Translations under genes and position numbers: made by a program
The notes under the pieces: generated by a model
Seen by the model: only the letters and a program-made list of their open reading frames with translations
What the model was told of the DNA's origin: nothing
Database searches by the model: none
Shown here: positions 8,218-9,761 of the stretch, piece after piece
Numbering within the stretch: the stretch's first letter is position 1
How the letters are laid out: each line of letters begins with the position of its first letter
NCBI GenBank assembly: GCA_020850475.1
Contig: JADZEO010000094.1
Coordinates: 1 to 39,736, forward strand
Origin: Bdellovibrionales bacterium
GTDB taxonomy: Bacteria; Bdellovibrionota; Bdellovibrionia; Bdellovibrionales; UBA1609
Direction: 5' to 3'
DNA: 39,736 nucleotides

Positions 8218-8781
8218 CTAAAATTCAAAAGAGACGGTGACGGCGGAGATCAACAGCGAGACGGCGGTAATACCAGCAAGGTCCTTGTGATATTCTTCAG
8301 GTCCATCGAGCTTTTCGCCCTTCTCGAATTTTTTCGCCGCCATATAACCCAAAATGGGGGTGAGAATCATGCCCGGCAGGTGAATCCACACCAGCCGCCG
8401 ATGCCAGGCGGAACCACCCTTTACTTTTTCGTCCTTGAGTTCGGGGGCGGCCCACGCGGTGTAGGCGGCCGCCGCATAACTAGTAAAGGCCAGGCCCGCC
8501 ATGTAGGGATGCTCGGGCGGCAAATCTCCTTCGCCTCCACTTAAGGTGGCAAGCGCCATCGTCCCGGCGCTCACGAGTCCCCAGATCTGGTGCTGCTTTA
8601 AGTAAAATCGTCGCTCTTCAAGTTGTTTTTGCGTCTCGGGCGAGGCTTTGGTGTCTTCACTGGTAAAGCCCAAGTCTTTGAGATCCAAAGGTTGGCTCTG
8701 GTCGGCGAAGGCGAGGGGTCCGCTCGTCACGAGAGCAAGAATCAAGGCGAGTCGAGTGAAGCAGTTGGCAGATATTTTCAT
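8218..8781 (-). CDS. Four-helix membrane protein with conserved-looking histidines, possible b561-like
   Basis: A 187-residue protein with an N-terminal signal sequence (about 26 residues), a charged segment, and four predicted membrane helices near 65-81, 93-111, 130-149 and 167-184. His64, His91, His127, His134 and His165 lie at helix ends, which is suggestive of a bis-haem b561-type arrangement; the HRRLVWIH..PGM..TPILGY segment is the best-looking part. I do not recognise a named family with certainty. The start at 8781 is chosen because AGAGGAAA lies just upstream and a signal peptide follows; the longer frame to 8973 looks noncoding. Pairing with YceI by a nine-base gap supports an electron-transfer or quinone-related role, as inference. 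Confidence 0.7.
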   Translation of the reverse strand: MKISANCFTRLALILALVTSGPLAFADQSQPLDLKDLGFTSEDTKASPETQKQLEERRFYLKQHQIWGLVSAGTMALATLSGGEGDLPPEHPYMAGLAFTSYAAAAYTAWAAPELKDEKVKGGSAWHRRLVWIHLPGMILTPILGYMAAKKFEKGEKLDGPEEYHKDLAGITAVSLLISAVTVSFEF

Positions 8782-9086
8782 TGAGGTCTTTCCTCTTGTA
8801 ACTGGGTAAAAAGACTTCGGGCAATCTATCATGGCTCGAGGTTCTCTTGGTAGATGATAGTTAATTGAGAACGGATGTCCCAGGTTTGGTTTGTGGCTCG
8901 GCGCAATGTCGGTCAGCGTAACTTGGTCAGCAAATCTTATTTTTTGTTGCCCATGGGGAGTGATCACATACAATTCAGCTTCTGGGCTAAACTTTTAGGT
9001 GCTCCCAAAGCGTCCAATGGACATTTTGGGAGCACCTCAATATTTGGACCAAGTCAGAATTGTAATCACCCATGGGGGGTCAACAA
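8782..9086. other. Divergent intergenic region dominated by a nested palindrome
   Basis: About 305 bases between the minus-strand b561-like operon and the plus-strand pair starting at 9087. The left 160 bases show no gene or clear promoter. The right 130 bases form the nested inverted repeat listed separately. Confidence 0.6.
8950..9077. repeat. Nested inverted repeat, near-perfect 41-bp core
   Basis: The core runs 8997-9037. aggtgctcccaaa (8997-9009) is complementary to tttgggagcacct (9025-9037), and gtcca-a-tggac (9012-9022) fills the centre; only two opposed bases fail to pair. Further out, cccatggg, tgat and acaattc near 8950-8976 match the complement of 9057-9077 in the same order, with small insertions. 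The segments in between also align loosely. The whole looks like a partly decayed palindrome of about 125 bp. It could be a palindromic repeat element, a MITE-like remnant or a transcript-level hairpin. Confidence 0.75.
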
Positions 9087-9761
9087 ATGAAGCAAGGGTT
9101 ATTGGTGTTATCGATGTTGAGTTTGGCAGCTTACGCTGGCGAGCACGGCGGCAAAAAAATGGAACATGGTGGGCAAAAGGTGGAAGGCGAGTCAACGACT
9201 GCCCCGGGCGACACGGCTGAGGCGGGCGGCGAAATGATGGGCGAAGGTTGTGGCGAAATGAAAGACAAAAAAGACCACAAGGCTTGCATGGAGAAAATGA
9301 AAGGCAAAAAAGGCTCGGGCAAAAAGCCAGCGGCCAAAGAAGAAGCGGCCCCCGGCAAAGCGGATCAAGGGCAAGTGATGCCGCAGCCAAAAAACCAAGT
9401 GACAGTCGAGCAAATCAAAGCCGCGTTAACTGAGTACATTGCTCAACACACCGATGCCTCCGGCATTTATAGCTACATCGATGTGGATCGCAACAACCAG
9501 CCGATGAAGCTCAAGTTTGTAAAAATCCACGATCCGGTTCGCTTCATGGAGAAAAAGGGCCAGTATTTTGCGTGCACCGATTTCGAAGTCACGGGTGAAT
9601 CCGGCAAGCTCCACGATCTTGACTTCTGGATGGTCCCGACCGCGACCGGTCTCGAAGTGGTTTCGACCAAAGTGCACAAGGATCCAGTTAAAAAAGCCAA
9701 AGCTTGGGTGAAAGTTCCCCGCTACACCTTCGAAGGTGAAGAGATGGTGGGTGTGAATTGA
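9087..9761 (+). CDS. Exported protein with a His/Met/Lys-rich N-terminal region
   Basis: A 224-residue protein with signal peptide ending A-A-Y-A-G. The first 90 mature residues are low-complexity and rich in Gly, Lys, Glu, Met and His, with EHGGKKMEHGG and C-G-E-M-K-D-K-K-D-H-K-A-C motifs that could bind metal. From about residue 110 there is a compact alpha/beta domain (VEQIKAALTEYI, then strands ending in FEGEEM) that I cannot name. The ATG at 9087 is preferred over 9072: GGGGGGT lies upstream and the signal peptide then starts properly. The stop codon overlaps the TTG start of the transglutaminase-like gene, so the two are probably made together. Confidence 0.75.
   Translation: MKQGLLVLSMLSLAAYAGEHGGKKMEHGGQKVEGESTTAPGDTAEAGGEMMGEGCGEMKDKKDHKACMEKMKGKKGSGKKPAAKEEAAPGKADQGQVMPQPKNQVTVEQIKAALTEYIAQHTDASGIYSYIDVDRNNQPMKLKFVKIHDPVRFMEKKGQYFACTDFEVTGESGKLHDLDFWMVPTATGLEVVSTKVHKDPVKKAKAWVKVPRYTFEGEEMVGVN

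Follow-up and report, generated by a model that had tools for sequence, protein, structure and literature searches.

Results

The window analysed here, 39,736 nucleotides of contig JADZEO010000094.1 (assembly GCA_020850475.1) from a Bdellovibrionales bacterium, contains a long imperfect palindrome located between two divergently transcribed genes. The coordinates of the features are shown in Table 1. The product of the downstream gene matched no family in Pfam or NCBIfam, and searches of 144 genomes of the class returned no homologue. This orphan protein probably carries a signal peptide and includes a stretch rich in lysine and glycine. The 3′ end of its gene overlaps a transglutaminase-like gene, and an additional in-frame ATG lies inside the right arm of the palindrome. 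The first-pass annotation had described the palindrome as filling the space before an operon; it does not do so completely, since about 160 bp separate it from the start of the left gene at 8781.

Table 1. Features in and around the palindrome (positions are those of the window).
Feature	Position	Strand	Basis or remark
Divergent left gene, 187 aa	8218..8781	-	Kept next to a YceI-like gene by several relatives
Left copy of the imperfect flanking direct repeat, GGTCAGCAAAT	8925..8935	+	10/11 identical to 9078-9088
Whole imperfect palindrome	8943..9087	.	Self-comparison and alignment with its own reverse complement
Left arm	8943..9016	+	Alignment with its own reverse complement
Sigma-70-like promoter match, TTGCCC-16-TACAAT	8947..8974	+	Inside the left arm; consensus match only
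Near-perfect core, 41 bp	8997..9037	.	Direct reading; 18/20 pairs around one base
Right arm	9018..9087	+	Alignment with its own reverse complement; last base is the A of the start codon at 9087
GGGGGG, Shine-Dalgarno-like	9074..9079	+	Direct reading; in the right arm, separated by 7 bases from the start codon at 9087
Right copy of the imperfect flanking direct repeat, GGTCAACAAAT	9078..9088	+	Shares bases with the right arm at its outer end
Downstream gene, 224-aa protein	9087..9761	+	No family match; in-frame ATG also at 9072

The palindrome comprises 145 bp centred on A9017 and is 71% self-complementary (E 3.8e-12; gap-tolerant self-comparison and BLAST against the genome). It had been recognized in the first-pass annotation at 8950-9077, a slightly shorter span than that obtained by self-comparison. 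The core consists of AGGTGCTCCCAAAGCGTCCA A TGGACATTTTGGGAGCACCT. From the outside toward the centre the arms are identical at 11/15, 8/15, 11/15, 10/15, 13/15 and 4/4 positions, and outside the core each block of 15 alignment columns, indels included, retains about 53-73% symmetry. The earlier description of a near-perfect core with decayed outer arms is therefore reasonable. The palindrome score of 20 was the best ungapped score in the window, compared with 10 in shuffled windows and at most 15 in a shuffled megabase. Folding of the palindrome as RNA gave -70 kcal/mol (z -5.8), a score that is not independent evidence because good folding is expected of every long palindrome. The 29% difference between the arms led us to reject a fold-back artefact of assembly. 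The palindrome is a genuine feature, far above chance level, of a kind that is ordinary in this lineage.

No intrinsic terminator (a G+C-rich stem followed by a T run) was found in 8700-9200, and the structure is, as first proposed, beyond an ordinary operator or intrinsic terminator. Two promoter-like sites were found in 500 bp, where 0.3 would be expected from shuffles. The right arm does reach the ribosome-binding region of the gene at 9087, as had been noticed from the letters; the GGGGGG motif is within the arm, which ends at the ATG. In predicted folds with three assumed transcript starts this motif was 39-61% unpaired, the highest value corresponding to an assumed start at 8981, with which the core hairpin folds intact (-46.8 kcal/mol). 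Since the motif is partially unpaired whatever the start, a clear on/off switch is not predicted. The 11-bp direct repeat that flanks the palindrome was equalled by 1 of 300 control placements.

The genome, 3.9 Mb in size, was searched for other copies by BLAST and with a covariance model built from the element and its reverse complement, which recovered only the palindrome itself. The same kinds of search in relatives produced matches at chance level only. There were no matches in 369 genomes of the phylum and none in phages or plasmids, and scans of viral and GTDB contigs with the core pattern were empty. Nothing in Rfam reached the gathering score; lax filters gave only animal or plant microRNA precursors, far below threshold. 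The first-pass annotation had suggested that a family of copies would indicate a mobile palindromic element, and that a lack of other copies, together with a lack of conservation in close relatives, would refute its reading. Other copies are indeed lacking, so such a family is not supported; the sets searched contained no further genome of the genus. In relatives that retain the 8218 gene and its YceI-like partner, the upstream neighbour is another gene and nothing matches the palindrome, and in G040 the transglutaminase homologue is found in another gene order.

A census of inverted repeats was carried out on 1.34 Mb, about a third of the genome, by comparing stretches with their own reverse complement. 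Fifteen nearby inverted repeats scored at least 60 bits (11.2 per Mb), the window palindrome scoring 67 bits, while mononucleotide-shuffled sequence reached 48 bits at most, with none at 60 or above. In the relatives G004 and G042 the same threshold gave 10 and 5 per Mb, respectively (0.4 Mb each). Three of the fifteen are members of a short repeat family, AAAGGTGCCTGCTACTTTTT, often found as inverted pairs (L065:17530-17622, L075:15998-16175, L078:6606-6711, L081 and others). Another is a GATATC-rich palindrome (L050:11173-11234) that ends two bases before a GTG start codon and recurs in part at C34:556-594 and C74:3038-3077 of the same genome. A 185-bp quasi-palindrome with no recognised head, L154:7938-8122, lies near a contig end, where an assembly effect is possible. 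Eight Y1_Tnp matches with E < 0.001 were found in the genome, five of them over the cut-off. The window palindrome falls into a loosely defined class of long, locus-specific inverted repeats in intergenic regions of this bacterial group. It is placed in this class, and not called a family member, because only the kind of arm is shared: long, near-adjacent and unique in the sample.

In most long hairpins of the genome a conserved structured head is flanked by arms of locus-specific sequence; the window palindrome has no head. One such head, head 1, is about 90 nt long and is carried by seven of the fifteen inverted repeats. BLAST gave ten matches to it in the genome, one of them partial (loci L118, L123, L127, L130/L142, L133, L136/L144, L138 and L140), and further matches in G006 (L119 and L125), G055 (L120 and L126), G017 (L122) and G037 (L121); L246:6610-6774 in G004 is related to it. 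In the alignment of head 1, GCGTATCCG is invariant and CGAAGACG nearly so. The consensus fold has 25 pairs, 11 of which show pair-keeping changes on both sides. The stems are near-perfect, about 30-80 bp long and different in sequence at each locus, and six of the nine distinct loci listed lie between convergent genes according to a simple ORF call. No Rfam match was obtained for these hairpins, and the pattern was not found in the literature searched. They look like a hitherto undescribed element, or RNA, with a stem formed by an inverted duplication of local sequence. Matches to the head-1 pattern in viral contigs look like chance, with at most 30 flank pairs and none with a long stem. The 260-bp nested palindrome L148:19041-19300, whose loop retains only a 22-nt piece of head 1, is apparently a decayed head-1 hairpin.

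A second head is shared by L101:11875-12115 and L159:258-432 of the same genome (84% over 51 nt; L159 scores 53 bits), with weaker matches at L238:15292-15429 in G004 and L213:438-559 in G042. Its stems are also long and locus-specific. Flanking direct repeats comparable to that of the window palindrome were not found at the head-bearing hairpins. No head relic was found in the window: with filters off the head-1 model scored at most 2.4 bits, compared with 80-103 bits for the main copies, and the conserved head with CGTATCCG and CGAAGACG at the centre, the hallmark of the head-1 hairpins, is absent from the window palindrome.

Discussion

The explanation that we favour, with confidence evenly balanced, is that the palindrome is a locally generated single-copy quasi-palindrome, an inverted duplication produced by fold-back or template-switch copying, that is now decaying. 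Through copying on the spot, one flank would have become an inverted duplicate of its counterpart, and subsequent drift would have diverged the outer arms through substitutions and small indels, leaving the core nearly perfect. This origin is inferred: local copying explains the unique arms, the tight one-base centre and the outward fall of symmetry, and a single genome copy with no relative elsewhere is as expected for a local event. The palindrome has the properties of a local quasi-palindrome, a near-adjacent imperfect inverted repeat with locus-specific arms, and the recurrence of inverted repeats with such arms in the same genome and two relatives counts for a local origin. It is established for E. 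coli that template switching makes quasi-palindromes more perfect (PMC7202029), and a role in the creation and maintenance of hairpins has been proposed for it (PMC8794818). The window palindrome resembles the quasi-palindromes of the E. coli thyA hotspot and lacZ reporter (PMC7202029) in its tight centre, imperfect inverted repeat, unique locus-specific arms and a core more perfect than the flanks; in contrast, it is far longer than the 18-bp reporters, and what is observed is the product of copying and not the event. Against local copying, the symmetry gradient also fits selection on the core, the imperfect flanking direct repeat would fit insertion, and the other long hairpins of the genome may have another origin because most carry a conserved head and the window palindrome does not.

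Insertion is the main rival, and we consider it unlikely. It would make the palindrome a decayed non-autonomous mobile element (MITE, ERIC-like or REPIN-like), inserted with a short target duplication and with no other recognisable copy left. The flanking direct repeat, rarely matched by control placements, weakly supports this origin, but its right copy overlaps the palindrome arm and may be a by-product of symmetry. Size and shape are those of ERIC-like elements: like ERIC and MITE-like palindromes (PMC10969869), the structure is imperfect, intergenic and about 130-145 bp long, possibly with a short flanking direct repeat. Its arms pair out to 8943 and 9087 in the manner of MITE-type terminal inverted repeats, as those of any long palindrome would. 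However, MITE and ERIC-like elements are expected in several copies in a genome or its relatives, with about 30 to 711 ERIC copies reported per genome (review, PMC10969869), whereas the window palindrome is single copy and has no relatives in the phylum. A comparison with REP and REPIN sequences and their RAYT-type (Y1_Tnp) transposases is prompted by the Y1_Tnp matches in the genome and by AGGTGC, the outer hexamer of the core, which also starts the AAAGGTGCCTGCTACTTTTT family. Yet those six bases are all that the core and the family have in common, a search of the loci of 1.75-3.4 kb that surround the Y1_Tnp matches did not find the family word, and the symmetry extends far beyond the core. 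Instead of a genome repeat-family sequence with many copies, the core had one occurrence in the sampled 1 Mb.

A selected regulatory structure, either a 5′-UTR hairpin or a nested regulator site that controls the 9087 operon and perhaps the divergent gene, is in our judgement quite unlikely. The location between divergent genes, the promoter-like match in the left arm, the GGGGGG motif and start codon at the end of the right arm and the well-kept core all fit such a role. The stability of the RNA fold would fit too, but it follows from the palindrome. Against this explanation, the motif is partially unpaired for any assumed start, relatives retaining the 8218 gene lack a matching palindrome sequence upstream, the downstream gene is an orphan and 145 bp is long for an operator. 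It is most improbable that the palindrome is the remnant of one of the head-bearing hairpins of the genome, with the conserved head lost and the locus-specific stem left behind. The head-1 matches on locus-specific stems occur in the same genome, and the head piece retained at L148:19041-19300 indicates that heads can decay. The window palindrome is also, like the head-1 hairpins, a long locus-specific intergenic inverted repeat. Nevertheless, it scores close to nothing with the head model, closes around one base with no extra loop, has arms less alike (71%) and lies between divergent genes, while most of the listed head-1 loci are between convergent ones. The broader proposal that it is a head-less member of a new Bdellovibrionales class, defined by a conserved structured head on a long near-perfect stem of local sequence, seems highly unlikely. 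If true, elements of the class would be generated by converting the sequence beside the head into an inverted duplication, in contrast to ordinary transposons, which produce direct duplications.

The present effect of the palindrome, if any, would most likely be exerted through RNA. Were the operon transcribed from the putative promoter in the left arm, the strong core hairpin would form the beginning of the mRNA and the site of ribosome binding would be just outside it. The palindrome may in this way provide the operon with a strong 5′-UTR hairpin, perhaps incidentally.

Taken alone, the palindrome is a curiosity, a long natural quasi-palindrome before a gene that can serve as an example of how palindromes arise and decay. 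Its greater value is as a lead to the 5-11 long inverted repeats per Mb present in this genome and its relatives, many of which carry one of two conserved heads, each time on a stem of different sequence; neither Rfam nor the papers searched gave a match to this pattern. These head-bearing hairpins are more interesting than the window palindrome and deserve their own study. The two-head pattern would allow tests of how long natural hairpins originate and are maintained.
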